A stretch of 64,000 nt of DNA from Rhodothermia bacterium (lineage in GTDB: Bacteria; Bacteroidota; Rhodothermia; Rhodothermales; UBA2364): positions 186,001 to 250,000 of the forward strand of contig JAFLBZ010000001.1 in NCBI GenBank assembly GCA_017303715.1. The letters are read 5' to 3'. Both the position numbers and the translations under genes were made by a program. The notes below the pieces were generated by a model. That model was given only the letters and a program-made list of their open reading frames with translations. It was not told where the DNA came from and did no database searches. Positions 36,265 through 58,803 of this stretch are shown here, piece after piece. The stretch's first letter is position 1. Each line of letters opens with the position of its first letter.

Positions 36265-36270
36265 AGGATT

Positions 36271-37566: not shown

Positions 37567-37567
37567 G

Positions 37568-38563: not shown

Positions 38564-38898
38564 CAGGGTTCCAAGAAATCTGGGTGGCCATGAAAGGGCA
38601 GGTTTTTAAGCAAGTGATGGCTGTACCACAAGGTTGCCTCGCCACTGTCCTTTGTTGTGCGCTTTTCGTAGTCTTCTTTAGCCGTCATTTGTTTATTCGG
38701 AAAAAGTGCATTGGTGGTTGCTTGGTTGAAGTATAGGACTTTAACGGATTCCACAATTTCGGCCTCTAACCGATCCCACTTTTCCGGTGGAGGAAGTTTG
38801 CCGCGTTCGAGGGCAAACTGCATAAAAGATGCCCTAAGATCGGAAAGTTCATGATCCAAATAGAACATCGCAGCAATGTTTCGGGCTTCTGCAAGCAT
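38563..38898 (-). CDS. Small conserved-context protein of the VgrG island, unknown
   Basis: 111 residues, acidic, with no signal or membrane segment. It is mostly helical by composition (LAEARNIAAMFYLDHELSDL, then EKWDRLEAEIVESVKVLYF). I recognise no family. It sits 12 bp after the spike-like gene and overlaps the next DUF2169 start by one base, so it is almost certainly a real, co-translated member of the island. A structural or adaptor role is more likely than enzymatic activity. Confidence 0.7.
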   Translation of the reverse strand: MLAEARNIAAMFYLDHELSDLRASFMQFALERGKLPPPEKWDRLEAEIVESVKVLYFNQATTNALFPNKQMTAKEDYEKRTTKDSGEATLWYSHHLLKNLPFHGHPDFLEP

Positions 38899-38910
38899 AG
38901 GGATTGGGGT

Positions 38911-39300
38911 CTAACAATTCATCATAATGCGTTCGCCATCCACTACCACATCGTCGTTGGCATAGAGCGATAGGTTGCCGAGTTCGGCGCGGTGAAATTG
39001 CTGACGGGCCGAGGTCTTGAGGTCGAGATTAACGGCTACATCCATTTCGCCATCGGAAGAAAGAGCTATTTTTTTTCGACCATGTAAAGCGATTTCCTCG
39101 GCCTCGAAACGTAGGTTATGGTCTGTTCGGATGCACAAGTCGCCACCGGTTACTTGTAATACTGGGCCCGCCTCCGTAACAACAATCGTGAGCGAGATAA
39201 TGCCATTTTTACCCACAAACTGGAGCAGTGCCTCTTCTGGTTTACCTTCTATAAGCAAGGCTTGTTCGCCGGGTAAAGCAATTTTTTGGATGTCTTTCAT
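38911..39300 (-). CDS. Small spike-like protein of the VgrG island (DUF3540-like, tentative)
   Basis: 129 residues. The sequence is a ladder of short alternating strands (GPVLQVTGGDLCIRTDHNL, LRFEAEEIALHGRKKIALS, MDVAVNLDLKT and LSLYANDDVVVDGERI) typical of gp5/VgrG-like beta-helix tips and of the C-terminal part of DUF3540 proteins found beside vgrG and DUF2169. There is no OB fold. It begins 19 bp after the vgrG stop. The assignment to DUF3540 is uncertain; the beta-ladder character is directly visible. Confidence 0.6.
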   Translation of the reverse strand: MKDIQKIALPGEQALLIEGKPEEALLQFVGKNGIISLTIVVTEAGPVLQVTGGDLCIRTDHNLRFEAEEIALHGRKKIALSSDGEMDVAVNLDLKTSARQQFHRAELGNLSLYANDDVVVDGERIMMNC

Positions 39301-39319
39301 GGTTTTTAGGGGTGATGGG

Positions 39320-41539
39320 TTATGCGTTTTGTTTGATCATGGCGCCAGAAATATCCACAATAGCGCCCGCTGAGATTTTGATGCCCATTGCGCCAAGTTC
39401 GATGGTATTACCCATTGCCGTGAGCTTGATTCCTGTGGGGCCTAATTCTATTGTAGCGCCACTGGCCGTAAGTTTAATCGTTGGTGAGCCTTCAATTTCT
39501 ACACCACCACCCATTCCTTTTAGGGTGAGTTTGCCTCCGGTGGATTTAATATCCGCATTTGCAGTGGCTTGTACGTCTAAGGTTTGGGTTTTAATGGTGT
39601 GTTTTCCGGCCTCCGAAAGTTGCCAAATTTCCCCACTTACCGAACGAAGTTCCACTTTGTTGGCGGCGGATTGGATCACCATTTTGTTGTTGAGGGCTTG
39701 GTCTGCCAGCACGATGAGGTTGTTCTGATCGTCTAAGGTGAGGTGATGACCGGCTTTGGTAGAGAGCCGGATTTTTTTGGCCGGATCCTCCATTTTAAGT
39801 TCATGGCCATACTTCGTTTGTACCGCGATGCCCTCGCGTCTGTCATCCAAACGAATGACATTCTCTCCGGTGGATTGTAATTGGATAAACTTGTCTTGGT
39901 CGTGCATCACAAAGATATGCTTATCCGTTGTGTCCATTCGGATGTAATTGTCTTTATCGTGCATCACCAATTTATTTTCCTCTTTCGTGACCAATTCCAC
40001 CTTTTCCCCGCCATCGGTCATGTTTAGGACGTGGTTATTTGAGGTTTTAAGGCGAATGGCGGTCTCGGCATCGTCCATCAACAATTCGTTGTGCGCATGT
40101 GTACGGATGATGTTCTGCTTTTGGTTTTGAGCAGTAACGGGAGAAGTGTTATTGGCGTTTGGAACGGTTCCGAGTGCAATTGGGCGGTTAGGATCGCCTT
40201 CTAAACACGCAAAAACCATCTCGGTCCGCTCGTGGTGGGGAAAGTGGAAGCCATAACCGGAGCCAGAATAAGGCTGTGTCATGCGGATTGGCAAGGTCGC
40301 ATCGCCATTAGGTGCAACTTGTTGCGAGCGTTGGTCAAAGTGTAAACGCGCATGATAGCGGCCTTTATCATCTATATAATTGCCTTGGTGATGTTCCATG
40401 GTGGCGGTTAAAAGGCCATCCATTCTTGGAACATGGGTTTTACGTTCGGGTCGGAAGGGCAGGCTAAACAATACGCTCTCGAACTCATTTACGTATTCTT
40501 CGCCTTGTTGCGATGAAAGTGCGGTATGGCGGTGGCGTTGGTCTCCATAGTGGATCACTTGGGTGAGCAAATAACTGGTGTTGCGATCGTCCCGGAAGTG
40601 TTGTCGCATTCCAAAAATGTATCCAGCGCGGAAGGCACGGCAGTCACCACGGCCAGAAAAAACCATCTGACGACAAGCAATTTCCTGCGCCCGTCGCTGT
40701 GCCAACTGGTCTGACGCACCCGGATCTGGTACATTGGCGCCATATTCTACCGCCACACCATTCATCTGGTCTATGGTTTGCGTACCCGGAGAGAGCAAAT
40801 CGGTTGTGGGTGTCTCGTAATTATAGTCATCCACGTAATATGTACCCGTCACCATTTTGCCCCGCGTTATAAAATCTCGGATAATTTCGGTTCCGGACTC
40901 GTCCTGCATCCCGCCTTCGCTATGATATGCAATGTCATCGTCTAAGGCCACAAATGGGCAGAAGGCGCTTTCGTCTGCAATTACCCACTTGTCGGTATCC
41001 CCTTCATGGTCAAAGTAGAAAAAAATACCCTCATGTTCCATCAACCGCTTCAGGAAATCCAACTCCGTTTCTTGGTACATCACTACATATTCTTTGCGCG
41101 GATATTGGCCAAAATGGGACTCGAACTCAAAATCTACGCCAGCTCTAAAATTGTACCGCCGTGGAAGCAAGTCCTCAATGATTTCTCGCACGGATTTATC
41201 TTGGTAAATATGATTTCCTTTACTAAGCGATAACTTCCAAATCTTAGGAACCATTACGACGCGGTAAACACATTGCTCCACCACAAATTCATCTTGAATA
41301 AACTCGCTGACAATGCCATGATGCGTCACCCGTTCGCCATTGCGCATAATGGTCAGAGTGCAGGCTTGCATGACCACATCCGCAAAATCTATGGCGTGAT
41401 CATCCGAAAGAAGGTTGATCCGAAATTCAAAGAGATCCGAAATGGTTTCTTTGCCTTCAAAATGGGTGACATGCCAATGATCTTCGGGGATGGCTGCCGT
41501 CCGGAAGGTGAATTGCGTTTCGTGCGCGCGTGGTGGCAT
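39320..41539 (-). CDS. vgrG: VgrG / Tss I spike protein
   Basis: 739 residues. Residues 1-390 form the gp27-like base (HWHVTHFEGKETISDLFEF, MYQETELDFLKRLMEHEGIFFYF). The gp5 OB region follows (GRYHARLHFDQRS, THPYSGSGY-type segment and GFHFPHHERTEMVFACLEGDPNRPIA, about 405-470). From about 480 to the end runs a beta-helix spike (NHVLNMTDGGEKVELVTKE, NYIRMDTTDKHIFVMHD). No extra effector domain is fused at the end. It is the first gene of the minus-strand island. No tail-tube, sheath, baseplate or ClpV genes are in the window, so it is an orphan cluster or the apparatus lies elsewhere. Confidence 0.95.
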   Translation of the reverse strand: MPPRAHETQFTFRTAAIPEDHWHVTHFEGKETISDLFEFRINLLSDDHAIDFADVVMQACTLTIMRNGERVTHHGIVSEFIQDEFVVEQCVYRVVMVPKIWKLSLSKGNHIYQDKSVREIIEDLLPRRYNFRAGVDFEFESHFGQYPRKEYVVMYQETELDFLKRLMEHEGIFFYFDHEGDTDKWVIADESAFCPFVALDDDIAYHSEGGMQDESGTEIIRDFITRGKMVTGTYYVDDYNYETPTTDLLSPGTQTIDQMNGVAVEYGANVPDPGASDQLAQRRAQEIACRQMVFSGRGDCRAFRAGYIFGMRQHFRDDRNTSYLLTQVIHYGDQRHRHTALSSQQGEEYVNEFESVLFSLPFRPERKTHVPRMDGLLTATMEHHQGNYIDDKGRYHARLHFDQRSQQVAPNGDATLPIRMTQPYSGSGYGFHFPHHERTEMVFACLEGDPNRPIALGTVPNANNTSPVTAQNQKQNIIRTHAHNELLMDDAETAIRLKTSNNHVLNMTDGGEKVELVTKEENKLVMHDKDNYIRMDTTDKHIFVMHDQDKFIQLQSTGENVIRLDDRREGIAVQTKYGHELKMEDPAKKIRLSTKAGHHLTLDDQNNLIVLADQALNNKMVIQSAANKVELRSVSGEIWQLSEAGKHTIKTQTLDVQATANADIKSTGGKLTLKGMGGGVEIEGSPTIKLTASGATIELGPTGIKLTAMGNTIELGAMGIKISAGAIVDISGAMIKQNA

Positions 41540-42205: not shown

Positions 42206-44188
42206 TCATTTTCCTGTTACAATCTGCGAGGCTATGCCTTCATTTCCGGCCAGATCAAAAGCCTTTATGTGGTAATAGCCTTTTTCGGGTGGTTTAGTGT
42301 CACTCCATTCTACGGTTTCGGCATTTGTCTCGCCTACCAAGTGATAAACCCCTGTTGGAAGGCCAGAGGTGCGGTAAATTTTATAGCCTACGACATCCTT
42401 TGTGATTAACTTTTCCCACCTAAGCAGAACCGTTCCCGCATCTATTTTTGATTGGACATTTTGCACAATAGGTGGCGGTATATTGTCTTTTAATGTAATC
42501 GGCTGCGAAACGGTGGGCTTACTTGCATTTCCTGCCGCATCCAGAGCAGAGACATAGTAAGTATATGTATTTCCGACAACAACCGCTTCATCTCTATATG
42601 GAAAAGCCTGATTACGGGTGCGCTGAATGGATTGTAACGGGCCACTTCCAGTTTGGCGGAAGAGTTCATACATCACCACATCAGGCGAGATAGAAGCGCC
42701 GTAAAAAACCGAGATATAGCGCCCGTCTATGTTTTGAACAGAAATTTGCAAAGGCGGTTCTGGTGGGTTTATGTCCTTTATTTCCAAAAATATGCGGGTA
42801 GAATCACTAAAATTCTGTTTTTTGTCCATCGCCGTCACCACGTATTCATAAGTTACCCCTTCGCTCAGTTGTCCTTGCGCAAGCCCATCATCCACAAATT
42901 GATCTCCGACAAATGTTCTGGTGGTGAGTTGTGTGAAGAGTTCGGGCGGATTTTTCACTTGCCGGCGTAGCAAGACATAGGCCAATAAGTCATCGGATGT
43001 GGGTGGAATCTGCCAAGCGAGGTTAATCTTCCGGTCGGTAGTAAGGCTTGCTTTTAGGTTTTTTGGCGGTGGCGGTGGGGTTTTGTCTAAACTTTCCGCC
43101 ATTACGGCATTGCTTTGGGCGCTTTCGTTTCCGGCGGCATCCACAACCGAAATGCGGTAATAATAGGTCTTTCCGGGTAAGATGGTTTTGTCTTTATACA
43201 CGGTTTCGAGTGGCCCAAGCGTCTTTTCATTGATGCGGACAAAGTTTTTCTCGATCTCTAAACTGCGATAAACGTGATAGCCGGCCAATTGTGCATCTGT
43301 ACTCATGGGGAATGTAATCGTAGCCTCATTGCCTTTTGGCGAGACCACAACCCGAACCTTGTCCAAGACTTCAGGGGCTTTGTTGTCGTCGAGTTTCAGA
43401 TTAAATACATTACTTCCGGCGCTTGAGGTTCCCGCCACATTGACAGCAACAACTTGATAGCGTTCGGATTCTCCCGATTTCAACGCCGTAAAGAGGTAAG
43501 TATGTTGGGATTGGTTGGCATCACGAAGTAACCACGCCTCTTGAATCGGTACAAATTTGCCATTTTCCATTTGCTTCATGATGTCAAATCGTACCACCTG
43601 ATCACGGATTTCATCATCGGATTTGGGGTAACTCCACCGGAAAGTGACGCTTAGTCCTTCGTGGCTGGCGGTTAGGCTTTGCGGGGCGGCGGGTATTTCT
43701 GGACGAACCAGTACCGTGCCCGTCATCGCTTTTCCTCTGGGTATGCCCGCCCCATCCACCATTTCTATTTTATAGGTAACGGCTTCCCCGCTTGGGGCGT
43801 TTTCATCCACATACAATTGTCCCAAAGCCTTTCCCAGCGGTGGCAGTGCATAAGCATACAGTTTAGCCCGAAAGCGATCTGCCCGCAACCGTAAATAGAC
43901 TGCCTGCGGCTCCGACTCGTCCATTTGCCTACGAAGATGCTGAAATGCCTCTCCCAGTTGAGCAACCAATTCTTCGCCTGAAGTCACGCCCGTAATGGGT
44001 GTATCGGTCAACTTCTCAAATGAAGCTTCTCCTATTTTTCGATAGACATGATATTGCTCACCCAACCTCGGAGCGTGATCTAACCATACAAAAACCTTGC
44101 TCCCTTGCGCATCGGGAACCAACCGCATTTGTGCAGATACCGGAATCGCAAGAAAAAAAATGGCTACATAGAAAAACAGTTTTCTCAT
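42206..44188 (-). CDS. Secreted protein with five fibronectin type III domains
   Basis: From ATG 44188 the product is about 660 residues with a clear signal peptide (MRKLFFYVAIFFLAIPVSAQ). The frame extends to 44236 but that part overlaps the giant gene. After a 130-residue N-terminal region come five Fn3 domains, introduced by PAAPQSLTASHEGLSVTFRW, KAPEVLDKVRVVVSPKG, PPPPPKNLKASLTTDRKINL, PPEPPLQISVQNIDGRYISV and PPPIVQNVQSKIDAGTVLLR, each with a VYR/YRT-type strand. No cysteine and no T9SS sorting signal is evident. It begins 10 bp after the giant gene's stop, so the two are one operon. Its probable role is binding or structural at the surface or in the periplasm. Confidence 0.88.
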   Translation of the reverse strand: MRKLFFYVAIFFLAIPVSAQMRLVPDAQGSKVFVWLDHAPRLGEQYHVYRKIGEASFEKLTDTPITGVTSGEELVAQLGEAFQHLRRQMDESEPQAVYLRLRADRFRAKLYAYALPPLGKALGQLYVDENAPSGEAVTYKIEMVDGAGIPRGKAMTGTVLVRPEIPAAPQSLTASHEGLSVTFRWSYPKSDDEIRDQVVRFDIMKQMENGKFVPIQEAWLLRDANQSQHTYLFTALKSGESERYQVVAVNVAGTSSAGSNVFNLKLDDNKAPEVLDKVRVVVSPKGNEATITFPMSTDAQLAGYHVYRSLEIEKNFVRINEKTLGPLETVYKDKTILPGKTYYYRISVVDAAGNESAQSNAVMAESLDKTPPPPPKNLKASLTTDRKINLAWQIPPTSDDLLAYVLLRRQVKNPPELFTQLTTRTFVGDQFVDDGLAQGQLSEGVTYEYVVTAMDKKQNFSDSTRIFLEIKDINPPEPPLQISVQNIDGRYISVFYGASISPDVVMYELFRQTGSGPLQSIQRTRNQAFPYRDEAVVVGNTYTYYVSALDAAGNASKPTVSQPITLKDNIPPPIVQNVQSKIDAGTVLLRWEKLITKDVVGYKIYRTSGLPTGVYHLVGETNAETVEWSDTKPPEKGYYHIKAFDLAGNEGIASQIVTGK

Positions 44189-44198
44189 GGTCATTGGT

Positions 44199-47100
44199 TT
44201 ATTGAAGTTCGATGGTGAACGTGCGGATAAGGCCAAGCGGGTTGGCTACGGTGACATGAATCTCGAAGGGTACGAAGTCCTTGTTAATGGAGAGCGGAAT
44301 GGAAAATTCTTTTGTTCCCACCTCTTCGGGTTGCAACGTACCAAGCCAAACATTCTGGGAAATCGTGCGATAGACTTCTTGCGACAACAGCCCTAAGTTA
44401 TTGGTTTTGCGGTAAGAAAAGACGTATGAAACCCGTCCATTAACCCCAGACTCTTCGTCTTTCAGGTCTATCAACGAAACGGTTAGCGTCTGTTTACGAG
44501 GATCCCAAATGCCTTGTGCCTCACCCAGATTTGGCGGCGTTTGGTCTTCTCTGATCAATACCGGACCTACCACCGAAAGACCAGACATGTTGCCTTGACC
44601 ATTAGAGACCCTGAAGGAGACAAAATAGGGTTCTAATCCCAAAGTTTCGGTATTTGGAACCGCAAACGATTGTCCAAAATCTCCCCGATCACAGCCCTCT
44701 GCTTTCGTCCAGCCACGTACATCCGCCAATCCTGCAGCCGTACCAATGGCATATTCGCACGTCCGAATGCCTGTTTCCTTATCTAATCCGGGTTCGGTGT
44801 TGACAAATACTGCTTGGCTGGTATTGTGTGAAATTAGGCGGTAAGACCGCATAATCGGTGCTAAAGGCCGCGTTGGGTCTGGTGTATTGCCTAAATTTAT
44901 CATGATTGCAGCACTGCGCCGCCCAAGGAAGTCCTCCGAGAACACCAACAATCGGGCATCGGCATAAGGCACGGTGTTGCGAATATCCAAGGTCATGGTT
45001 TCTCCTTCTATCCTGTCCTTGTACCGTACCGGCGGATCCAGATACCAAAATTGCTCCATGTTCCGACGCGCAAACGCATCTGCAATCACTCCCGACGTAT
45101 CGCGCTTGTTCGTTACCACATATCCATACCGCCGGATGGCATCTTTGGGATTAAAGATTTCCACTTGGTAATATGTGGGCAAATATGGGGAGTCTCCTCG
45201 TTTTGGGTAATTATTAATTTCCGTCTGTTCTACGGGCGGATACACAACGGCATCGGGCATCGGAGCATCTTGGATGGCCGCCTGTCCGTTGACGAATTGG
45301 ATAAGCGAAGGCGCTTTGGGTGGTAAAAGGTCTAATCGAACCGGATTGGCGGCGTACCACACCGTTTGCAACCCTTGGCCGTTTTCTGCTACCACACTAA
45401 AGTAATAATCTTGGTCTTCTTGTAAATTTAGCCCACTAACTTCACCACTTATCCGTGACGAAGTTTGTGTGCGTGCGATATTCCCGACCAATGGTTGCCA
45501 AGACTGGATATCCGATTCGCCGTATGCTGACCCGATCGCATATGAAAACGATTTGATATCAGACTCTGGGTCTGATGCAGAAACGTCTATTGCAACACGA
45601 TTCCGTTTACTCACCCAGATGGGCGTAACACCCTTCTCGGTATCTAAAATGCCCATTTCTTGCACATATCCTTCTTTTCTCATGACCAAATTTGCCGAAT
45701 TAATGGTGGGTGACGAGGAGTCTTGAGACACCAAATTACCATTGCTTGTTGGTACTTTCACCCCCACTTGTAAGACATTTGGGTTTACGACCACCACGCC
45801 TTCCTCACTTACGTCCACATTAAATGTCGCCGTTCTACGGATAACGTTGCCTGCGGCACCTCTTGCTTGAAGTGTCACCGTGAGGGTTTGTACCTTTTCG
45901 TCTTTCAGCAATCGAGGTGTTTCAAAACGCTGTTCGGTATTTCTGCCCACACTCAAGGCCGTTCGTTCTGGGAGGAAGGAGGCCATCACGTTAGAGACAT
46001 ATGCTATTTTTTGCAGATAAAGTGGTTTTGTCGCATCAATGGTAGGTGGTGTATTGTTAATAGGATTTGCACGCACGGTGGCGATCCCCCCCGATACCGC
46101 GAGCGCATATTCAGTTACAGCAAGTGGGTGATATGCCGCCCAAGTCAGGTTAACCACGCCCAGATTTGCATTTCGTTGCGCAACAAGGCTGATATTCGCA
46201 ATAACGGGTGCTTGAAGGGCTTGTCCAAGTCCAGTTTTTAGCGCCTCCAGCGGCTCATTGCCTTGCAAGTTGGTCGCAGTACGCCAAGTCTTGAAGTCCG
46301 CCACCATACCATAAAGCGTCACTACCATCTGCGATTTTAAGCGGTGGATTTCGCCCACTTTTGTGGAAAAGTTCTCCCACGCGCTAAGCAGGTTTTCGCG
46401 TTGTGTGGAGAAGGAACTAATTTCGTTTTGTATTCTTTCTGGTCCCGTTCCCTCTATGAGCCATTCAAGTCCCAGTCGGAAGCGATCCACCCAAAATTCG
46501 CGTTGGATGCGGTTAACGTTTTCCTTAAAACTGCCTTCATTTCCGTCGTCTGCCGCTTTTTTTATGGCATTGTTCATCGTTGTGGCATTGGTAGCCATGT
46601 CGTTATAAGAGATACTCGTCCCAATCGTCATGTTTTGATATAGGATTGATGCCATAGCTCCTGCGTCGTAATTGACACTATTGCTACAGTGTCCAAAGTT
46701 TTGTGGATCAAGCGCATTTGTAAGGAGACACCTTCTTGTCCAAGCGACATCGGTGGTAACGGTTATTTCGTTTTCAGTTGCTGGCGCCAAGCTATTTAGG
46801 AAATTCAAGCGTTGTTGGAACTCCTTACGCAAAGTCCAGACATGGGCAATCCGCCTGCTAAAATAGCTATAAACATTGTTCAATGATGCCGAGAACATAC
46901 GAGCCTGCGCCTCGATCTCCCCCTCGCCGGAGGAAGGAATTGCGGGCAGGGTGTTCGGGCGCTCAAGCCCATTCATCCAGTTGGCATCGCCGAGCAAACT
47001 AACTTCGGTTTTGCCAATGTGTTGCCAGACCTGAACAATGGCTTGTCGGTATTTGCCCTCGATGACCTCCATTGCAGCTTGTAGGTTGCCGAGTGCATTT

Positions 47101-50100
47101 TGGTTTGCGGCCTCCGCTTGGTCATCCATCCCAAAGGAGGGCGGAATTTCGCCTTGCCAATTCATCTGGACATTTGTGATTGGATTTCGGATGGCATCCA
47201 TATCCTGCTCCATCTTCTCCGATTCCCGTACCGCTTCGATGGCAATGGATTTAATTTCCTCCAAGCGTGCCAAGATTGAGGCTTCTTTGGTTTTCAGGGC
47301 ATCTAAGGAAGCGCGCATCATATTCATGTAATGGTCTTCGCTGTAGAATTTTTCTGGTACATCACCTGCAAGGACTTGGCTATAAATATCCGAGAATGCG
47401 GTTGGGCGGTAATTGCGTCCGGTTCTGCTGTAATATTTTGCCGAATAGTTCCAGACATTACTTCCCGGCCCCATAATGCTTGCCTTTTGGTCTGGCCGCA
47501 AGAGAAGAAACGCTTTTCCAGAAGCGGTAAGTTGTTCTTTGCTCATAAAAGCGGCAGCAGCAATAGCGGCTTGTAAGGCTTGTTGGGCGGCATTGGCCTC
47601 GTTTTTCATGTTTTCGGCATCTTGCATGGCTTCAGCAATCATGGCTTCATAGGCCGAGTTCGACCCAAGCCCGCCGTCCCAATCACCATTATAATTTGCA
47701 AGATAGATGGAGACCTTTGCAAATAAGACCTTAACCTTTGCACCCGCATAAAAAAGTGTGTTGTTATTGCGTTTGATAAAGGCGCCTTTTGCCGTCACAC
47801 TTGCCACTTCAAAGCCCAAGACCTCGATACCGGCGGTCATTTCTCCATAAGCCCCCATATTTCTTCCATTGCTCCGCCACCAGACCATAAAGTCGAAATG
47901 TACGGTTGTAGAAACAATGGCCAACGCTAGACCGGCATCCACTTTAAGTTTGAACAAAAACCCTGGATCTCCTACAAAGAATTCTCCTTCCATCCCTACG
48001 AACAAAACACGCGCTTTTACATTCCCCCAAATTGCCCAATTTGTTTTCCCATTTTGCGAAACGAGGTTAAAGCCCACTTCTGCACCCGCATACAGCAAGA
48101 AACCAAAATCCAACTTCACACCGACCTCACCCCCAATTCGGAAAAGATTTGGCTCTTTATGGATGCTAAGATACATGCCTGCTTGGAAAACAGGTAGATC
48201 AAAAATCGTGACATTGGCATTTAGCGTAAAGTCAAATTTTTCAAACCCATCGCCAAAGCTAAACGCCAATAAAGCTCGCCCTTTTACCAACCTTAGTACC
48301 TCTACTTGGGCAAACAACAAGGCGGTAAAATCCATGCCCTCGATCTGCGGCACCCGATCCGGTTTATAGAGAGCCTCCCGCAACCCCGGCAGGGTCATCA
48401 CCAATTCCATATCCGCTTGTTCGGGTCGGATAAAGAACCCTGCGCCAATACTCGTCAGGGTCAGCACACCGGGGAAAATCTCGATCGGGAAGTCCACTTT
48501 TGCAAAAAGCCCCATTGTGACCTTTCCATCCCGCACCCCAATTTTACCGGCTAAGGCCCCTCCAAGCCCCGGAGCAAGTTCCACCCCTCCGGCCACCCTT
48601 AGTACAAAACCGCGTGCGTCGGTCAGGTATTGCATAGAGGCCGTCGCTTTAGCAATTCCTCCCAATTCCAAATGCGCATTTTTAATGGAAAGAAAGAACC
48701 CGCCGCCTTGTTTTTCATACACCAAGACCTCATCCACACCACCACCAAGACCTTCACCAATGGTAATACTTGCACCGGCTTTCAGGTAATAATTCACCGC
48801 AATGGCCTCCGTGCTTTGTTGCACACCGCTTGGCCCACCACTACTGGTTTGTAGATTAAGTGTCGTGGGGCTGCTGCTGAAGGAAAACCCATTCAGGGTT
48901 AACGAAACCACCTCCATCAATTTCACACTGACTTCACCTGTTGGGCCACCCGAATCAAGGATGCCGCTTGATCCTATGGTTAAGCCTTGATACCCAAAAG
49001 AACCCGAAGAACCTGCCAAGTTTAAACTGGCCGTTCCACCAATCACCACCGCAAAGCCATTTTGGGGCTTAAAACCAATGCTCAGGTTCGTCATTTTGAA
49101 AACCCCTGCATCCAAATCAAATCTAAATTGCGCACTTGGCATCCGCCACTCCACGCCATTGGTTGCAGAAAGCCGGAATCCCCAATTTTGGTCTATATCC
49201 GAAGGCGAACCAAAAGCAATGACTTTAGCGTCGTCGTTCCCAAACTTCAGAGACGCCGAGGCCATGATAGACGTATTGCTTAGGTTATTCCAATCAGCTA
49301 CAAACTTAATTCCGGTCAATTTAAGCCGCGCAATGCCGCCTAAGTCCACCTCCGGCGATCCAGCAACAGGCTCATCCTTCCCAAAATCGAAGGTGGGATA
49401 AATAGGGGTGAAAATGGGCGAGCCATCTTGTGCAAGTGCAACGGTAAGTCCAGCCTCCCCCGTTGACTTAAAAGGTTCCGGAAGTGTAATGAGTCCAGAT
49501 GCCGTGATTTTCGGGCGATTGTTCTCTACCCCAATTTTTAGGGTATTGAACTCAAAAAGATTGGGGATAATCTTGATGGGATCGTTCGGATTGAGGAGGT
49601 TTAGGGCGGCATCGCCCACTGAAAACGAGCCGTCCGTACCTATGACCAAGTTATTGATGGGCAACGTTTTCCCGAGGAAAGAAAGTTCGCCATCCAATCC
49701 AAACCGTAAAATGGCGTTTTGAATACTGAGGCGCATTCTCCTAATGAGCAAGGGGAATTGCTCACCCAGAAACTTGGTTTGTTGCTGATTATTGAACTCC
49801 GCTTGGGTGAGCGCAACGCCTCCGGTTCCGATTTTAAGCCCACTTACGCCCAGAGCAAAGCCTTTTCCGAGCAGTTTTTCCATTTTGAAGATGCCGTCGA
49901 GCATCAAGGCAAATTCTTGGTCGTTATTTACAAGACCAATCCGTGAGGGCACAAAATCCGCAAAACCAAGCGGAATACCTTCTAATAAAACAGGCCCCGG
50001 CGCTCCAAAAGCATCCTCACCGGAGTTACCGAGGTTTTTACCACTGAATCTTGGATCCATCAAGACATCAAAATTCCACGCATTGTTGTAGCCACCCACC

Positions 50101-53100
50101 AACTGGAAACGTCCGGGTTTTCCGGCGTCATCCTTGAAGAAGGCCGTCGCTAATTGCCCACTCAAGGCCATACCGCCAAAGCTGTTGTTTTGGATATTAA
50201 ACGAAACGCCACAAATGGAAATCTGCACGGAATCCCCACCGAAGTTCAGTTTTTTTAATGGGTTATCGGAACAACTTTGTTGAAATTGTGGACTCGCATC
50301 GCCAAGTGTGAGTGTGGCATTATCGAAACCGCGATCGGTAAGGCGTAGGCCAACCAATTCTAAAGGCGCATCTCGGTCTAACATCTTTGGCAGTTTTACC
50401 GTTGCATCCACCAAAAGTGCAGGTGCGCCATTTACCACTTGGAAGCGCATTTGCTTGAGCGCAAGCGGTGTGCCATTGAAGAGTTTTTGGTTCAGTGCAT
50501 CCGTCACCTCAACGTCTAATTTCTCGAAGGCCTCCACCGATGCACCATTAAAGACCACGCTAAACGAAGTTTTTGCAGTTGGTTTGCCTGAAATTCCTTC
50601 CAGAACCAAGTCGTTTGTTTGTCCCGGACGAGAGAACAAGCGCATCCGGCCACCGCCCAAGTTTTCTGTAGCAACGAGCAGGTTATTGCCTTGTTTTAGT
50701 TGGACATACGCCACCGATGTCGTGGGAACGGGTAGCTTTTCTGGAATTAAATCGGCAATTGCTTCCCCGATATTGTCTGGATGAAACCCATCTTGATCCA
50801 AATAAGCCACACGTTCTTCTTGGCCATCGTCGCGGGTGCGGAAGTATTCAATTTTACCATCGCGCACATAGACCGAGCCAAATCCCAACGCAACAGGCCC
50901 AAATTTTTGTTTGAGTTGTGGGAAGACCAAGCCACCAATCCGCATCTCCGCCGAACCCTCTCCCGAAAGTGTTAAGCCATCTTTGGTGATATTGATGAGG
51001 GCAGGAAGACCCATTTTTAGCACATTTCCCGAACTGGGCAAAGGTGTTGCAACGTCTGTTAAGCCCCATTCCCCGCGATCGAAGAAGAATTGCAATGCCA
51101 ACGGAGCCGAAACTTGAATAGAACCGCTTTGGAGTACGTTTCCCGCAAGACCAAAAACGGCATTGTTGAACGACGTATTGACCGTAGCGCCTCCAACGCG
51201 CAGTCCTCCAGAGCCATTTAATTTTAAACCACCTTCCGTCAATAAAGCGTTACTGATGGAAAAAGCAAAAATGGGATTGTTTTTGGGATATTGCCAGATA
51301 AATGGCTGGTTGATGGCAATGGATGTGGGTGCTAACAAGTCGCCATTGAGCAAATTTACCGCCAACCGCCCAGTCCCACGTACCTCACTGTTTTGACTTG
51401 CAATAACGGCTTCTGCATTACCGGATAATAAGAAGGTTTCCTCCCCGCCGCCGAGTTTTAAGGACAAAGCAGATTGTTGAAACTGAAGCGATACTTCCCC
51501 AAAACGAATCGCACCACAAGGAGCAAGATTCGGTATTTGGCCTTCAATCTGACCAGAAAGGGACATCTTAAGTGATAATGAGGTCTTGCAATTATCGGCG
51601 TTTTGAACAACCGAGGGCCACTTTAGCTCACCTTCCATCCGCACTTCACCGTTCTGAACTCCTTCATCTGCAAAAAGCCTCCCTCCTATCCGCTTTACCA
51701 ATAATGCTGCTTGTCCTCCGAGGGACAACGGCTTTTCTTGCAACAATTCGAGGTCATTGAACTGCCCATTTAGGAGGCCATTCTCAAACCCAGCATTTCG
51801 AATGATGAGCGTTTGCCCTGCCAATTCTGGTGCGCGATCGGCAAGCCCAAAAGGTTTTACACGTAGATCTATTTCAGGCGAAATTTGTGGCGGATTGACG
51901 CCAAATACATTTATCCGTGTCTGGGGCAACCTAAATCCAATAGGCTGAATTTGGTAGGCATTGAGGTTTACATATGGTGCATTGAGCGGCGGATTGGTTC
52001 CTTCGTGCAAATCCAATGCAGGCAAGTCGAGGCCATTTTCGGTTAATTCAAGGCCATTAACGGGAATTTCTAAGCCGCGTTCGTTTTTCAAACTTAGCCA
52101 TAAAGAAGCCGCCAAGCCCATCCGAAACGCAAAATGGTTCTGCTGATAGTCCATTTGAAGGTTACGAATCCCAGCAATACGCAAACCGAGGTTGCCTACT
52201 TCCCACGTTTGTGCCTCCGCATAAACCGGATCGAAACGTGTAATGGCAAAGCCATCCGGCGAATACCGAAATTCCGCCGAGGCAGAGGCCAGAATCAGAT
52301 TAGACGCATTCCGCACTTGGATATCCGATTGGCCTGTGATGAGGAAGGTGGGACTTCCATTTTGGAATGGAACCGACATCTGAATGTTCAGTGTGCGCAT
52401 GTTCATCCCGACCAAGCCGCGTTCTGCTACTAACGGAATGAACTGACTGGGATTGCAGGTTGTAGATACCTTCCATTGATGATCGGTTTGCGTAAACAAC
52501 TGCACTGGACAGCCATCGCCTAAAGGTTGCCCAAAAAGGGACATTTTTCCGGTCAGGTTCAGCTTTTCATCTTCAAAACCCACCATCAGCACTGAAAATG
52601 GAAGCCCGTCGGGCAATTTAAGGTCTTCGCGACCTGCAACCGAAACGCCCAAGCGCCCTCCTACCACCTGCCGTGTGTTCGGGTTATAAACCAGATTGTC
52701 GAAGGCAACCTCGACCATTGGTGGCTCTGCTTGCTGGCCCTGTAGCGCAGGGAGCATCCAACGTGCTTTTTTCCCCGGAAGCGTAAAGAGTCGCAAGAGG
52801 CCATTGCCCATATCCTCCGAGGAAACCACTGCCGCACCGTTTGTCTTCACCGTTATATAAGCGACCGACTCCAAGGGCAATGAAATTTGATCAGGTAACA
52901 AAGCCGAGGCCAAATTGGTGGCCATTCGTAAACCCAAGGCATTCAGTGTAGCAATGCGGTTGCCGTTTTGGTCAAAGCCAACCTCTCCTTCTTTTGGGGC
53001 AAAAGGCGAAAGCGAGAACCAAAGATCAGGTGACACTTGGGTTTCGAGACCCGTTAGGGCGAGTTCACCCACCCGTATATCGCCATTCTGCACAACATTT

Positions 53101-56100
53101 TGTACAGCTGCTCCGGCCTCTGGCTGCGGAAACGTCCAGCCAAGCGAGGAAAGTTGGGAGGATGCCGGAAACACAAAGCGCAGTCCTTCTGGAAGTTCGG
53201 TTGCAGGTGACTGTGGTACACTGGTGTAAGTGATGTGTCCCGTCTGACGATCAACCGCTGCAAACATGGGTAGTGCGTTATCAAGGGTAATTGTGCCGGA
53301 TTGAATCTGATGGGTTGCGGGGTCTAAGCGTACCTCATCAAACGTAACCCCGCCTAAAGTTGACGTAGCAGTTTCGCTCAACGTGCCAATTCCCAGCAGG
53401 TTTCCACGCCCGTTGATGCGGATACCGGATGCCTCAAATTGCACTTCATTCGCATAAAACCGAAAAACGGGATTGTTTTTGGGAAGAGAAATTTGGGTCT
53501 GTGTTATTCCACCTGCCGTAGCACCTATCTGCCAGTTGTCAAAGCGGCCATTCATCACATCCAAATTCACCTGAACGGGTACAAGGCCAACTCCGGCCAA
53601 ATCTCCTTCCCCCGTGAGATTGGAGAAACGTGCAGTTTGTTTGCCCGCCTCTTCTCCAAAAACCAATCCCGAAGAGGTCAGTTTTACTCGATAATGCTGA
53701 TGGGTAACCGATACATTTTGCAGACTATTGCCGATTCCTGTTGTTTCGGAAACCCAGAAACCACGACGATTCAAATAAACTTGTGCCAGTTCTTGGCCTT
53801 GTAGCACGGTGACTTCGCCGAGTACAATGTTTTTTTCCGGTTGTAATGGCCCTGAAAGGCGTACTCGTCCCGTTGGAAGTGCTCTTCCATCAATAGTAAG
53901 GCTACCATTCTCTTCAAGATTTATACGAATGTTTGCCCGCATTTTTTCCACATCCAATTGGGCGATCGGTTCCGCAAGTTCTGGCGATTTAAGCCCAACC
54001 ACACACGGTATCGGGAGTTCGGCAAGGTTGCTCGACCACCCAAAAAACGTACCGTTCCACAGACCGTTTTGCACCTTCATCGCTAAAGCCTGGAGGCAAG
54101 AAGGAACACGAGACAAGGCACTGCTCATCCGTAGTTCCAGATCAACTTGTGCATTCCAAGGCCCAGCATCTGCCTTAGACATCCCAAGCCAGTCTAGAAC
54201 CACCGCCGGCTGCCGAAATCCTTCTATGCGCCCCTCGAAAGGTGCTAAACTGATCGTGGTTGTGTGGGATAAAAGTGATTTCGAGAGCGAGATTTCGGGA
54301 ATCTGAATGGGAGTTCCATCAAAATTCAACCCAGAAAATGTAGCAAGTGGTTGGCTCCCAAAGATCGGATGACCCAAACCCGCATCCAGATTAAACCTAT
54401 ATGTCCAAGTAAAATCTGCATTAAAAGCAAAGGTTGCTAATCGAATCCGCCCAATATTTAGGTCAAGGCTCCCCGTTTCTAAATACGTTTGCCGAGGGTC
54501 GCAGTTTTGAATGCCCAACTCTGGTTGTGGAACCGTTTCCTCCCGAACACGAATGGGAAAGACCACACCACAATACTTACCGTCACGAGTCAACAAGGCC
54601 AATTCAGCCATCAGGGTTAAGTCTGTAACCAAACTATTTTGAGTAGCATCAACTGCAAAAGTACCGTTAAGTTGCTGTATTTTAAGCTTAATTTTAGACT
54701 GATCTGGCGTATTGTTTACGGAAAGATCAAGGCGACACAATACTGGAATTTGTCCAGCAAGGTCATTCAGGGAAACACCTTCGATGCGACAAGTGGTTGG
54801 GTTGCCAAACAGATTAAGTGTGGCCACACCCGTTGTTTCGCCAGCGGGGAGCCGCACCCCAAGCCGCCCCAAAATGAGTTTAACAGGCCCGCTTTCATAC
54901 ACGACCGGATTCGGCAAATTTGCTTCCAGAAAGCCCGAAAATCCCGATGCGTCAAAGGAAATCTGACCTGTAGCGGGTAAATAATTACCCGTTTGTGGAT
55001 GCCGAATTTTGGCCTCCGCGACAAATCCTTTTATGCGATCCCAATACAAGTCCTGAAGTTGTACATTTTGGTCGGGGAAGGGAACGCCAAGCGAAGAAAG
55101 GACATTCCCCAAATAAACCTGACCATTCGTAATAGCGAATGCTTGAGGCTGAACCTGAAGATTTTGCAAGCGGACACGAAGTTCGATTGGGCCATTCATC
55201 ATTTCAAGACGCAAGGTAGCAAAGCCGGAAAGGGTTTTGAGTCCGGCAATATCTTGCGAAAACGCCTTTGAAAGGCCACGCAGTTGGGCAAATCCGGGCA
55301 CCAAATCCACTTGATCCCATGCAGGAATGGCATTAGGATCGTCAACGGGCGGTGCGACAGGATCCTCAACCACGTTCGCACTCATTTTGGTAAAGGTAAC
55401 AATTTCCGAAAAGCCGTCACGGGTGATGGGCGCATTCCGGCTGGTTTCTTCTGTCTTTACCCGAACGGCGTAGCGTGTATTGTCTTCTAAAGCCGGATAA
55501 GCCGCAGAATAAACAAAGGTGGTTTGATTGGTACGAACCACTTGGCCGGTTACTGGCGGATTACTGCTAAGGGCTTGAGAGGGCGTCTGATTAGGAAGAA
55601 TTTTGACGATTTGTAATGAATACTGAAACCGATCTGTGATTGCGCCAACGACGGGAAGCCATGAAAAGGTCATGGGCGCGATAAGCACTTCCGACTCGTT
55701 TATAGGAGAAATAAGTTCAGCAGGTTCTGGATACGTGATCTCGGAAGTACCAATCCCCGGTACGGTCATGATTGCCGCATCTGTAAGGGGTTCAATTTCG
55801 AGTTCATACCTTCCTTCTGGAATGAGGCCAGATCGTAGCGCAACCGATTGATATTTGCTTTCTAATTTGTTGATTACGTCTTGAACGCCATCATCAAACG
55901 TAATACTTGGGGCGTCTTTAAAGGTTCGATAGGTGTAAATGCCCGGTGAGTAGGTATTGGGGCGCGAAGTGGTGGTGTATAAAACTTTATCGTTATGTCT
56001 AAAAGTCACTTTGAACCGAAAGGACACAGGACTTGCATCTAATGGATTTTGATACAAAAATTGTATCTGGTATTTTCCCGTTTCATATTCACGGAGCAGG

Positions 56101-56216
56101 TCTGTATAGGTCGAAAAACTGGCTTGGGGCAAGATGCCAATAAGGTTAACCTGTGCCGTCTGTGACCTTACAAGCGGTGTAAATGCGAAAAGGAGTAGAA
56201 AAAGAATACGTTTCAT
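44199..56216 (-). CDS. Giant secreted beta-rich protein (about 4005 residues), unknown family
   Basis: The start ATG 56216 yields about 4005 residues with a signal peptide (MKRILFLLLFAFTPLVRSQ). An Fn3-like domain covers about 165-285. The bulk to about 2850 is repetitive beta-strand sequence; a module near 905-1170 is repeated near 1635-1880 (PKNNPVFRF/PKNNPIFAF and SVAYITVKTNGAA/SVAYVQLKQGNNL). An Ala-rich helical, coiled-coil-like stretch follows (ENMKNEANAAQQALQAAIAA, near 2880) and continues to about 3300. C-terminal Fn3-like modules carry YAIGSAYGESDIQSW and YAIGTAAGLADVRGW. The 16 cysteines I found lie in eight local pairs, fitting disulfides outside the cytoplasm. There is no T9SS domain and no catalytic motif. 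It is the middle gene of a three-gene operon. Family and function are unknown. Confidence 0.85.
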   Translation of the reverse strand: MKRILFLLLFAFTPLVRSQTAQVNLIGILPQASFSTYTDLLREYETGKYQIQFLYQNPLDASPVSFRFKVTFRHNDKVLYTTTSRPNTYSPGIYTYRTFKDAPSITFDDGVQDVINKLESKYQSVALRSGLIPEGRYELEIEPLTDAAIMTVPGIGTSEITYPEPAELISPINESEVLIAPMTFSWLPVVGAITDRFQYSLQIVKILPNQTPSQALSSNPPVTGQVVRTNQTTFVYSAAYPALEDNTRYAVRVKTEETSRNAPITRDGFSEIVTFTKMSANVVEDPVAPPVDDPNAIPAWDQVDLVPGFAQLRGLSKAFSQDIAGLKTLSGFATLRLEMMNGPIELRVRLQNLQVQPQAFAITNGQVYLGNVLSSLGVPFPDQNVQLQDLYWDRIKGFVAEAKIRHPQTGNYLPATGQISFDASGFSGFLEANLPNPVVYESGPVKLILGRLGVRLPAGETTGVATLNLFGNPTTCRIEGVSLNDLAGQIPVLCRLDLSVNNTPDQSKIKLKIQQLNGTFAVDATQNSLVTDLTLMAELALLTRDGKYCGVVFPIRVREETVPQPELGIQNCDPRQTYLETGSLDLNIGRIRLATFAFNADFTWTYRFNLDAGLGHPIFGSQPLATFSGLNFDGTPIQIPEISLSKSLLSHTTTISLAPFEGRIEGFRQPAVVLDWLGMSKADAGPWNAQVDLELRMSSALSRVPSCLQALAMKVQNGLWNGTFFGWSSNLAELPIPCVVGLKSPELAEPIAQLDVEKMRANIRINLEENGSLTIDGRALPTGRVRLSGPLQPEKNIVLGEVTVLQGQELAQVYLNRRGFWVSETTGIGNSLQNVSVTHQHYRVKLTSSGLVFGEEAGKQTARFSNLTGEGDLAGVGLVPVQVNLDVMNGRFDNWQIGATAGGITQTQISLPKNNPVFRFYANEVQFEASGIRINGRGNLLGIGTLSETATSTLGGVTFDEVRLDPATHQIQSGTITLDNALPMFAAVDRQTGHITYTSVPQSPATELPEGLRFVFPASSQLSSLGWTFPQPEAGAAVQNVVQNGDIRVGELALTGLETQVSPDLWFSLSPFAPKEGEVGFDQNGNRIATLNALGLRMATNLASALLPDQISLPLESVAYITVKTNGAAVVSSEDMGNGLLRLFTLPGKKARWMLPALQGQQAEPPMVEVAFDNLVYNPNTRQVVGGRLGVSVAGREDLKLPDGLPFSVLMVGFEDEKLNLTGKMSLFGQPLGDGCPVQLFTQTDHQWKVSTTCNPSQFIPLVAERGLVGMNMRTLNIQMSVPFQNGSPTFLITGQSDIQVRNASNLILASASAEFRYSPDGFAITRFDPVYAEAQTWEVGNLGLRIAGIRNLQMDYQQNHFAFRMGLAASLWLSLKNERGLEIPVNGLELTENGLDLPALDLHEGTNPPLNAPYVNLNAYQIQPIGFRLPQTRINVFGVNPPQISPEIDLRVKPFGLADRAPELAGQTLIIRNAGFENGLLNGQFNDLELLQEKPLSLGGQAALLVKRIGGRLFADEGVQNGEVRMEGELKWPSVVQNADNCKTSLSLKMSLSGQIEGQIPNLAPCGAIRFGEVSLQFQQSALSLKLGGGEETFLLSGNAEAVIASQNSEVRGTGRLAVNLLNGDLLAPTSIAINQPFIWQYPKNNPIFAFSISNALLTEGGLKLNGSGGLRVGGATVNTSFNNAVFGLAGNVLQSGSIQVSAPLALQFFFDRGEWGLTDVATPLPSSGNVLKMGLPALINITKDGLTLSGEGSAEMRIGGLVFPQLKQKFGPVALGFGSVYVRDGKIEYFRTRDDGQEERVAYLDQDGFHPDNIGEAIADLIPEKLPVPTTSVAYVQLKQGNNLLVATENLGGGRMRLFSRPGQTNDLVLEGISGKPTAKTSFSVVFNGASVEAFEKLDVEVTDALNQKLFNGTPLALKQMRFQVVNGAPALLVDATVKLPKMLDRDAPLELVGLRLTDRGFDNATLTLGDASPQFQQSCSDNPLKKLNFGGDSVQISICGVSFNIQNNSFGGMALSGQLATAFFKDDAGKPGRFQLVGGYNNAWNFDVLMDPRFSGKNLGNSGEDAFGAPGPVLLEGIPLGFADFVPSRIGLVNNDQEFALMLDGIFKMEKLLGKGFALGVSGLKIGTGGVALTQAEFNNQQQTKFLGEQFPLLIRRMRLSIQNAILRFGLDGELSFLGKTLPINNLVIGTDGSFSVGDAALNLLNPNDPIKIIPNLFEFNTLKIGVENNRPKITASGLITLPEPFKSTGEAGLTVALAQDGSPIFTPIYPTFDFGKDEPVAGSPEVDLGGIARLKLTGIKFVADWNNLSNTSIMASASLKFGNDDAKVIAFGSPSDIDQNWGFRLSATNGVEWRMPSAQFRFDLDAGVFKMTNLSIGFKPQNGFAVVIGGTASLNLAGSSGSFGYQGLTIGSSGILDSGGPTGEVSVKLMEVVSLTLNGFSFSSSPTTLNLQTSSGGPSGVQQSTEAIAVNYYLKAGASITIGEGLGGGVDEVLVYEKQGGGFFLSIKNAHLELGGIAKATASMQYLTDARGFVLRVAGGVELAPGLGGALAGKIGVRDGKVTMGLFAKVDFPIEIFPGVLTLTSIGAGFFIRPEQADMELVMTLPGLREALYKPDRVPQIEGMDFTALLFAQVEVLRLVKGRALLAFSFGDGFEKFDFTLNANVTIFDLPVFQAGMYLSIHKEPNLFRIGGEVGVKLDFGFLLYAGAEVGFNLVSQNGKTNWAIWGNVKARVLFVGMEGEFFVGDPGFLFKLKVDAGLALAIVSTTVHFDFMVWWRSNGRNMGAYGEMTAGIEVLGFEVASVTAKGAFIKRNNNTLFYAGAKVKVLFAKVSIYLANYNGDWDGGLGSNSAYEAMIAEAMQDAENMKNEANAAQQALQAAIAAAAFMSKEQLTASGKAFLLLRPDQKASIMGPGSNVWNYSAKYYSRTGRNYRPTAFSDIYSQVLAGDVPEKFYSEDHYMNMMRASLDALKTKEASILARLEEIKSIAIEAVRESEKMEQDMDAIRNPITNVQMNWQGEIPPSFGMDDQAEAANQNALGNLQAAMEVIEGKYRQAIVQVWQHIGKTEVSLLGDANWMNGLERPNTLPAIPSSGEGEIEAQARMFSASLNNVYSYFSRRIAHVWTLRKEFQQRLNFLNSLAPATENEITVTTDVAWTRRCLLTNALDPQNFGHCSNSVNYDAGAMASILYQNMTIGTSISYNDMATNATTMNNAIKKAADDGNEGSFKENVNRIQREFWVDRFRLGLEWLIEGTGPERIQNEISSFSTQRENLLSAWENFSTKVGEIHRLKSQMVVTLYGMVADFKTWRTATNLQGNEPLEALKTGLGQALQAPVIANISLVAQRNANLGVVNLTWAAYHPLAVTEYALAVSGGIATVRANPINNTPPTIDATKPLYLQKIAYVSNVMASFLPERTALSVGRNTEQRFETPRLLKDEKVQTLTVTLQARGAAGNVIRRTATFNVDVSEEGVVVVNPNVLQVGVKVPTSNGNLVSQDSSSPTINSANLVMRKEGYVQEMGILDTEKGVTPIWVSKRNRVAIDVSASDPESDIKSFSYAIGSAYGESDIQSWQPLVGNIARTQTSSRISGEVSGLNLQEDQDYYFSVVAENGQGLQTVWYAANPVRLDLLPPKAPSLIQFVNGQAAIQDAPMPDAVVYPPVEQTEINNYPKRGDSPYLPTYYQVEIFNPKDAIRRYGYVVTNKRDTSGVIADAFARRNMEQFWYLDPPVRYKDRIEGETMTLDIRNTVPYADARLLVFSEDFLGRRSAAIMINLGNTPDPTRPLAPIMRSYRLISHNTSQAVFVNTEPGLDKETGIRTCEYAIGTAAGLADVRGWTKAEGCDRGDFGQSFAVPNTETLGLEPYFVSFRVSNGQGNMSGLSVVGPVLIREDQTPPNLGEAQGIWDPRKQTLTVSLIDLKDEESGVNGRVSYVFSYRKTNNLGLLSQEVYRTISQNVWLGTLQPEEVGTKEFSIPLSINKDFVPFEIHVTVANPLGLIRTFTIELQ

Positions 56217-56240
56217 ATCGTTTGGCAAATCTGGAAGGTC

Positions 56241-57950
56241 TTAAAAACGGTGTTCGTACCGGAGCGTCCCCCGAAATTCAGTAAAAGAAGCGAGCGTGCC
56301 TTCGGCAGCATTTGAGAGAAGTTGTAAACCCAGCGATAGGCCGTCTTTTTGCGTTAAAGTGTAATTACCCTGAAGCAGCGCCGTCCGCTGCCTGCTTATC
56401 AAGGACACGCCCGCAACCGGAAGGGTCTCGTTCTGATTCGAGGCAGCGGTAAGATTCAACCCCAATTTGCGGTTAAACAGTTGTGTCCCGGCCCCCAAAC
56501 TCAAACCGGAAGCCTTCGTTTCCGAAAAGTTATTCTGGTTTTGTAGGGTACTTCCCCCCATATTCACGGTTAAACCAGATGGCAAACTCAGGCTGTAGGC
56601 GGCATGTAGGGTTCGCGTATTAAAATCGGGCGATGGCCGTTTTCCGGAAAGGACGGAAGGACTGAAGTCTGAAAACCTTTGCAGGCTAAACGTTGTATTG
56701 ATGGCATGTCCCAAATTGCCCGTGCGGAGCGTAAGGATGGGCATTATGGTAAGCATATTGGTCTTTTGGTCTTGTATAAGTCCGGAGGTCTCCAAGGTCG
56801 GTTCTATTGGTTTGGATTCGTTCCGCATTTGATTCCAAACTACCGAAAACATAACATTTTTCAATAACCGCACTTGTAAGTTCGCACCCATTTGCGATCG
56901 CGTCAAGGTGGACATGCGCTGCTCCAAGAGATTGTTCATCTGTCGGTTATACTGCAATCCAAGATTTAAACGGCGTTTAAACAGACGAAAAGTGGGTTGG
57001 ATATAAAGGGCCTCACGATCGTCCTGCGCACTCACAATCCCTAAAGACCTAAAATTGGGCTGAATACGCTCGTAGCCCATACGCATACCAAAGGCGGGAT
57101 ACGTAACCCGTAATTCCCCATTTGCTGCAAAATCTGCACGAGTTGAGGTATGTAGGGTAAACCGGCGGAGCACTTTGTTGAGGGTTTCGGTTAATCGTGC
57201 GTCTAAGCCTGCATTTGCAATCGAGAGGGTGTCTAAGGATATGTCAGACGAATAAGCGGATAGGGTTCCTTGTAATTGTAAAACAATTTTTTCGGGGATG
57301 ATAGGCAGTTGAAAATCCGGGGTAAGGGTTGCGTTTTTTACAGGTTTGATGTTTGGACGTACAAGGGCAACATGGTTGGTATCGTCAAAGGCATAGGTTA
57401 ATGCAAGGCCGATGTACCCTTTTGGGTCACCCAGTGCAAACCTGCCCGCATACATCCGTTGTGCAAAAGTGCCATTTTCAAACAAGGACTCTGTAGAACC
57501 TTTGGTGGCACGTTTTGTTTGTCCGGCAGCCACATTTAGGACAAAAAAACGAGGGCTTAGCTCGATAGCACCGCCCAACATCGAAACGCCATTGAGGGCA
57601 TATCGTCCCAAAACCGGACTGACCGAGCCAATGCCCAATTTCCCCCACTTCCATTGCGTGTTAAAGCCAACTTGATTGATGCTTTGACGCAATTTATTGT
57701 CTTCGGTAGAATAGAGTAAATTTATACCAGATTGTAGCCCCAAAAGATTGAACTGCACATTACCAAAGGCTTGCGCACTGCTGCCCGGACGTCGTGCTTC
57801 GATACCGGAAACGTGGTACAATTCGCCACTAAAACCAATACCTCCATTCACTTTAAAGACTTGTTTTTTAAGATTTTGAGCATATGAAATTAGGGGACTT
57901 GACAAAATACAAAGCCCCAATCCTATGCGAAGCAAGTGTTTAACCTTCAT
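56241..57950 (-). CDS. Outer-membrane beta-barrel-like protein, first gene of the giant-protein operon
   Basis: The start ATG 57950 gives 569 residues with a signal peptide (MKVKHLLRIGLGLCILSSPL). The mature sequence is alternating amphipathic strands ending in an aromatic residue (FRGTLRYEHRF), the classic outer-membrane insertion signal. Segments such as VNGGIGFSGELYHVSGIEA, GLQSGINLLYSTED and LNLGLQYNRQMNNLLEQRM look like barrel hairpins. No plug, POTRA or TonB box is apparent. It precedes the giant gene by 24 bp, so it may anchor or export that protein. I do not recognise a named family. Confidence 0.8.
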   Translation of the reverse strand: MKVKHLLRIGLGLCILSSPLISYAQNLKKQVFKVNGGIGFSGELYHVSGIEARRPGSSAQAFGNVQFNLLGLQSGINLLYSTEDNKLRQSINQVGFNTQWKWGKLGIGSVSPVLGRYALNGVSMLGGAIELSPRFFVLNVAAGQTKRATKGSTESLFENGTFAQRMYAGRFALGDPKGYIGLALTYAFDDTNHVALVRPNIKPVKNATLTPDFQLPIIPEKIVLQLQGTLSAYSSDISLDTLSIANAGLDARLTETLNKVLRRFTLHTSTRADFAANGELRVTYPAFGMRMGYERIQPNFRSLGIVSAQDDREALYIQPTFRLFKRRLNLGLQYNRQMNNLLEQRMSTLTRSQMGANLQVRLLKNVMFSVVWNQMRNESKPIEPTLETSGLIQDQKTNMLTIMPILTLRTGNLGHAINTTFSLQRFSDFSPSVLSGKRPSPDFNTRTLHAAYSLSLPSGLTVNMGGSTLQNQNNFSETKASGLSLGAGTQLFNRKLGLNLTAASNQNETLPVAGVSLISRQRTALLQGNYTLTQKDGLSLGLQLLSNAAEGTLASFTEFRGTLRYEHRF

Positions 57951-58208: not shown

Positions 58209-58799
58209 ATGATCCCACCGTATTCTTCAGATGAATTTTCCGAACTGCTCTTGCAGTACCGCGAAGGAGACAAGTCGGCCTTGAACGAATTGTGGCCGAT
58301 GGTTTACCCCCAATTACGTTCTTTGGCACACCGCCACCGTTTGCATTGGCATCAAAACGAGACCCTTAATACCACAGCCCTCATCCACGAAGCCTACCTC
58401 CGTTTTGCGGAGAACACCAAAAATGCCGTACAAAACCAAGCCCATTTTTTTGCACTGGCTTCGCGGATCATGCGTTCGATCGTGTTGGATTATGCAAAGC
58501 ACCGCAATCGCCAAAAACGAGGCGGGGACGTGTTACATGTTTCCTTAGATTTTGCCATCGAATTATCGGAAGACGTAGCCGAACATTTGATTGAATTGGA
58601 CGAAGCCCTCCAAAAACTGGAAGCGTTTGACGAAAGAGGTGCAAGAATCATCGAAATGAGGATATTTGGCGGATTGTCTCTTCAGGAAACTGCAGCGGCT
58701 TTAGACATCTCGATACCAACTGTAACGCGAAATACCAAGTCTGCTCAAGCATGGCTTTATCGCTTCATGCACGAGGATGAATTGGGCCATCAAAAATAA
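58209..58799 (+). CDS. ECF-type RNA polymerase sigma factor (ECF sub-family linked to Ser/Thr kinases)
   Basis: 196 residues. Region 2 is visible as YREGDKSALNELWPMVYPQL with ETLNTTALIHEAYLRF and HFFALASRIMRSIVLDYAKH, and region 4 as EMRIFGGLSLQETAAALDIS followed by TVTRNTKSAQAWLYR. This is the ECF sigma group (PF07638/TIGR02999) regularly encoded beside a Ser/Thr kinase with TPRs. The kinase gene follows 4 bp after the stop (TAA at 58797-58799, ATG 58804). The sigma gene is divergent from the barrel-giant-Fn3 operon, 258 bp away, and may activate it. No anti-sigma gene is present; kinase signalling is the likely input. Confidence 0.93.
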   Translation: MIPPYSSDEFSELLLQYREGDKSALNELWPMVYPQLRSLAHRHRLHWHQNETLNTTALIHEAYLRFAENTKNAVQNQAHFFALASRIMRSIVLDYAKHRNRQKRGGDVLHVSLDFAIELSEDVAEHLIELDEALQKLEAFDERGARIIEMRIFGGLSLQETAAALDISIPTVTRNTKSAQAWLYRFMHEDELGHQK

Positions 58800-58803
58800 A
58801 GTA

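Follow-up and report, generated by a model that had tools for sequence, protein, structure and literature searches.

In the SprB-SprF system, a giant adhesin is anchored by an adjacent barrel (PMC9143113). MtrB, a 26-strand barrel, forms a sheath round MtrA across the membrane (PMC7198977). The TamA/TamB and TamL/TamB pairs combine an outer-membrane barrel with a long amphipathic beta protein, and the chaperone-usher pores FimD and PapC have a large barrel fold. The window analyzed here is a stretch of 64,000 nt (C1:186001-250000) in the 4.35 Mb genome of Rhodothermia bacterium GCA_017303715.1. It has a three-gene unit, hereafter the cassette, that shares features with each of these systems and for which no description was found in the open-access literature. 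A large proportion of Bacteroidota genomes have the cassette, frequently as multiple copies. It includes some of the longest genes of the genome and apparently has no name, family model, or assigned function.

The three genes are in a row on the minus strand and encode a barrel of 569 aa (56241-57950), a giant secreted protein of 4,005 aa (44199-56216), and a separate secreted Fn3 protein of 660 aa (42206-44188). Their ATG codons are at 57950, 56216, and 44188, and a TTG-extended ORF of the giant reaches 56228. As described in the initial annotation, gaps are 24 bp between barrel and giant and 10 bp between giant and Fn3 protein, when ORFs are taken from their ATG starts. All three products have Sec signals of the cleavable type (..LISYAQ, ..LVRSQ, and ..IPVSAQ, respectively), an earlier call that was upheld by eye. 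The five Fn3 units reported for the third protein are clear in a domain search, which also uncovers a degenerate N-terminal unit.

Recurrence of the three genes in Bacteroidota

The initial annotation regarded the trio as a candidate undescribed surface system and suggested a neighborhood search for co-occurrence. In this search, the genes recur side by side in paralogues, congeners, and across the phylum, an arrangement that is far beyond chance, and no characterized system was found to which they belong. Slices of the giant were used as queries for relatives in the same genome. The barrel, the giant (2,099 to 6,397 aa), and the Fn3 partner are each present there four times. Contigs C2 and C20 each have the full trio in order: barrel, giant (2,099 and 3,712 aa, respectively), and Fn3 protein. 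The barrel on C3 stands alone with no giant beside it, and C7 has a giant of 6,397 residues and an Fn3 protein without a barrel. Identities of barrels, giant N-terminal domains, and Fn3 proteins yield the same pairing, with the window cassette grouping with C3/C7 and C2 with C20, and these identities make the orphan barrel on C3 a plausible partner of the C7 giant. Sets of four barrels are also found in two congeners, each of which has a giant of approximately 6,400 residues. Open frames of these counterparts are 6,396-6,398 codons in both, indicating that giant length is conserved within the genus.

Across 394 Bacteroidota genomes, the barrel profile matches 165 and the profile of the N-terminal domain of the giant, giantN, matches 117. 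The two are together in 110 of the 117 genomes with giantN, relative to an expectation of 49 (Fisher p 3e-46, with shared ancestry not corrected for). Among the 88 barrels listed, 63 have a giantN on the same strand within 1 kb and 14 more have one within 25 kb; approximately a quarter of tested barrels have no giantN inside 1 kb. In most of the 40 loci that were opened, the genes for barrel, giant (289 to 4,137 aa), and Fn3 protein are consecutive and in that order; in a few the Fn3 gene is ahead of the barrel. No relatives were found in viral contigs or plasmids.

In at least two genomes, giantN and the barrel are fused into a single protein (L159, 947 aa; L160, 911 aa). The fusions argue for a physical complex and are the best evidence of contact between the two partners. 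We consider it likely that the barrel, the giant, and the Fn3 protein form one outer-membrane complex. In the fusions, giantN sits ahead of the first barrel strand, and a periplasmic location of giantN is thus equally possible.

Some relatives of the barrel are found in other contexts. A barrel type of approximately 700 aa is located beside ORFs that appear by eye to be ECF sigma- and FecR-like, mostly without a neighboring giant (L091-L097). Another locus has proteins of 1,515 and 1,774 aa, with no match in Pfam or PHROG, directly upstream of a barrel-giantN pair (L089:2644-12548, minus strand). In L162-L164, barrels of approximately 800 aa are in an operon with a short relative of giantN (hhalign 94%) and proteins judged by eye to be FecR-like and CHASE2-like, possibly a part of the barrel family with a sensory role. 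These operons, together with the kinase and ECF neighbors in the window, are what would be expected if the unit as a whole were a sensory complex. However, FecR- and CHASE2-like genes were not seen next to cassettes that bear a giant, both assignments were made by eye, and sensing leaves the length of the giant unexplained. We therefore give this explanation little weight.

Predicted fold of the barrel

Initially identified by eye, the barrel is now backed by an AlphaFold model and a family alignment. The model was computed from six sequences and has a mean pLDDT of 76 and approximately 26 strands, a count that may err by a few given low confidence in several stretches. The chain ends in ..EHRF, and the model has neither a plug nor a periplasmic domain. 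Sequence profiles place the barrel in no family of Pfam, NCBIfam, or PDB. The top solved-structure match by both Foldseek and VIA is MtrB, with an alignment of 444 residues at Z 19.3; among large barrels, pilus ushers rank next. We suggest that the barrel is a wide plug-less outer-membrane pore or sheath, its fold and size both being predicted.

The match to MtrB covers predicted barrel size and fold, and porin-cytochrome complexes likewise have a wide barrel holding a partner, but no sequence relationship was found between MtrB and the cassette barrel. Nor is there a multiheme cytochrome partner, and a CXXCH heme motif is not possible in the giant, where cysteines are at least 14 residues apart. 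Chaperone-usher pores are similar in having a large barrel fold, whereas the cassette has no chaperone or pilin genes nearby, the model is plug-less, and the partner is a single giant chain.

SprB-SprF is the nearest functional parallel: both systems belong to Bacteroidota and pair a giant protein, probably at the surface in the case of the cassette, with a dedicated outer-membrane barrel encoded next to it. It documents the same logic, raising the possibility that the barrel is a PorP/SprF-kind anchor and that type IX secretion exports the giant by way of an unrecognized signal. The two systems nevertheless differ in that the cassette has no sequence match to SprB-SprF and no type B CTD. PF11751 (PorP_SprF) matches neither the 25 barrels examined nor those of the same genome, ruling out a PorP/SprF identity, and the barrel is predicted to have approximately 26 strands rather than 14. 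The giant had been described as lacking a T9SS signal, and indeed no T9SS C-terminal sorting domain model of Pfam or NCBIfam matches the giant or the Fn3 protein. Instead, the domain shared among giants is an N-terminal docking domain, and the cassette has an additional Fn3 partner. Type IX secretion is thus an improbable route for the giant.

A plug-less barrel is also difficult to reconcile with uptake, in which the barrel would be a channel and the giant and Fn3 protein a substrate-binding surface apparatus for nutrient acquisition, in the manner of SusCD. Some giants have carboxypeptidase-regulatory and Fn3 domains, and the presence of several paralogous sets per genome is consistent with such a role. 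But the TonB plug is absent from the barrel model, SusC/D domains are unmatched, and no conserved hydrolase or transporter genes are evident beside the cassettes examined. We regard nutrient uptake as the least probable of the alternatives.

Architecture of the giant

The giant has no Pfam or NCBIfam match above cut-off, and parts of its plan, delimited with iterative HMMs, are common to approximately 18 further giants. Its N-terminal docking domain (giantN; 55299-56159), delimited by alignment and from the barrel fusions, consists of two Ig/Fn3-like halves and is the part common to all giants. It is followed by module 1 (52557-54827), an amphipathic beta repeat of approximately 750 aa, and by module 2 (50385-52559) of approximately 725 aa. 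The C-part (47739-49982; approximately 750 aa) is a divergent continuation of the module repeats; profile matches, with a negative reversed control, indicate that it and the modules are remote copies of one another. The C-part had looked by eye like DUF6603, a reading that was dropped because the genome has no match to that family. The C-part is followed by a helical region of approximately 470 aa (46272-47675), defined by an HMM and a helical hydrophobic periodicity, and by an Fn3/Ig-like tail (44202-46067) found by domain search and HMM. All of these features are on the minus strand.

The core of the giant, approximately 2,350 residues, is repetitive amphipathic beta. Modules of approximately 730 aa are the large unit, with two in the window giant and five in the 6,397-residue paralogue (G000:C7:116340-135533; L022-L024), and an offset of approximately 75 residues runs throughout the core inside them. 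Some giants have two to five full module copies, and others have partial and shortened ones. The shortest have little beyond the docking domain, and the giant of 289 aa in L158 indicates that a long rod is not essential. All 16 cysteines of the window giant are in eight close pairs, which fits an oxidizing compartment.

Features of the core bring TamB to mind, and the initial annotation drew a loose parallel to TamA/TamB. Hydrophobic alternation in the core is like that of TamB and outer-membrane barrels and unlike that of Fn3 proteins. An AlphaFold model of module 2, computed from the two window repeats, is of low confidence (pLDDT 41). In a fold search with this model, TamB chains rank second and third and have the longest alignments among the top matches, but their Z-scores of 4.8 and 4.6 are in the noise range. 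These similarities would be accounted for if the giant were a periplasmic or envelope-spanning hydrophobic groove, in the manner of TamB, AsmA, or VPS13, and the barrel were the exit through which lipids or glycolipids move. However, kinship with TamB is not supported. The TamB (PF04357) C-terminal domain model does not match the giants of the same genome, and comparisons of the modules and C-part with TamB by hhalign are no better than reversed controls. Genuine TamB genes are located on C8 and C4, apart from the giants, and TamB copies are present in all 40 members of the order that were searched. Furthermore, the giant has no N-terminal inner-membrane anchor of the TamB type and its N-terminus reads by eye as a cleavable signal, and the barrel model has no POTRA-type domain. 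The profile tests and the true TamB genes elsewhere rule out the giant as a TamB; TamA/TamB may still serve as a loose structural analogy based on the long amphipathic beta repeat.

Length also bears on where the giant resides. If strands average approximately 15 residues, a value taken from the early part of the low-confidence module model, then a linear core would measure, by estimate, on the order of 70 nm. Such a length exceeds that of the periplasm and is the main reason why a rod on the surface is favored over a bridge within the periplasm. Overall, a lipid-conducting groove is unlikely.

Proposed surface rod and its probable regulation

We propose that the giant is a surface rod anchored by the barrel, a reading to which we assign a probability of approximately 0.5. 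The wide, plug-less, and dedicated barrel would hold the giant by its N-terminal Ig-like domain, and the giant would be anchored through or at the barrel and probably displayed on the cell surface. From there, amphipathic beta modules would form a long rod, the length of which would be set by the number of modules and which would end in the helical region and the Fn3-like tail. The Fn3 partner, a protein of its own, may bind or extend the giant, and the assembly may have a role in contact or adhesion. The possibility that the barrel anchors or exports the giant had been raised from the outset and is consistent with the giantN-barrel fusions and with a barrel that is large and has no plug in the model.

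The surface rod could further be part of a separate Bacteroidota system for export and anchoring, in which the barrel threads or sheaths giantN and displays the rod under the control of a kinase-activated sigma factor, with no sequence kinship to T9SS, TAM, ushers, or two-partner secretion. We advance this extension tentatively. If the barrel does export or anchor the giant, the cassette would add to the few routes known in Bacteroidota for very large surface proteins, and module number would be a built-in length variable.

Two genes on the plus strand are candidates for regulating the cassette. Divergent to the barrel gene is an ECF sigma factor (58209-58799) that matches TIGR02999 (Sig-70_X6) with 179 bits against a cut-off of 126. 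The overlapping gene (58777-61410) encodes a Ser/Thr kinase with a C-terminal TPR-like part. The sigma factor has NTTA in place of DAED, at the position of STTA in EcfP of V. parahaemolyticus, where STTA is the phosphorylated motif. It thus has the features of an ECF43-type factor, namely a TIGR02999 match, an STTA-like motif, and an adjacent Ser/Thr kinase. The sigma/kinase pair is kept beside the cassette in two congeners, and another kinase gene precedes the C2 cassette. The genome that includes the window has eight TIGR02999 matches, and approximately 16 kb separate one of them from the barrel that stands alone on C3. We infer that an ECF43-like sigma factor, switched by the adjoining kinase, probably controls expression of the cassette.

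Other genes in the window flank these loci. Just downstream of the cassette is an island of T6SS-type delivery genes (34178-41539, minus strand). It encodes a VgrG that has a baseplate hub domain of the phage type, as well as two DUF2169 proteins and small proteins of no assigned kind. The VgrG and DUF2169 genes were rejected as part of the cassette, as they have no homologues beside the cassettes of the two congeneric genomes. Farther along, a minus-strand gene (27645-29801) encodes a 718-aa protein that combines cytochrome c-type (CXXCH) and TPR repeats. On the plus strand, a small secreted cytochrome P460-like protein is encoded right after the kinase gene (61468-61977).
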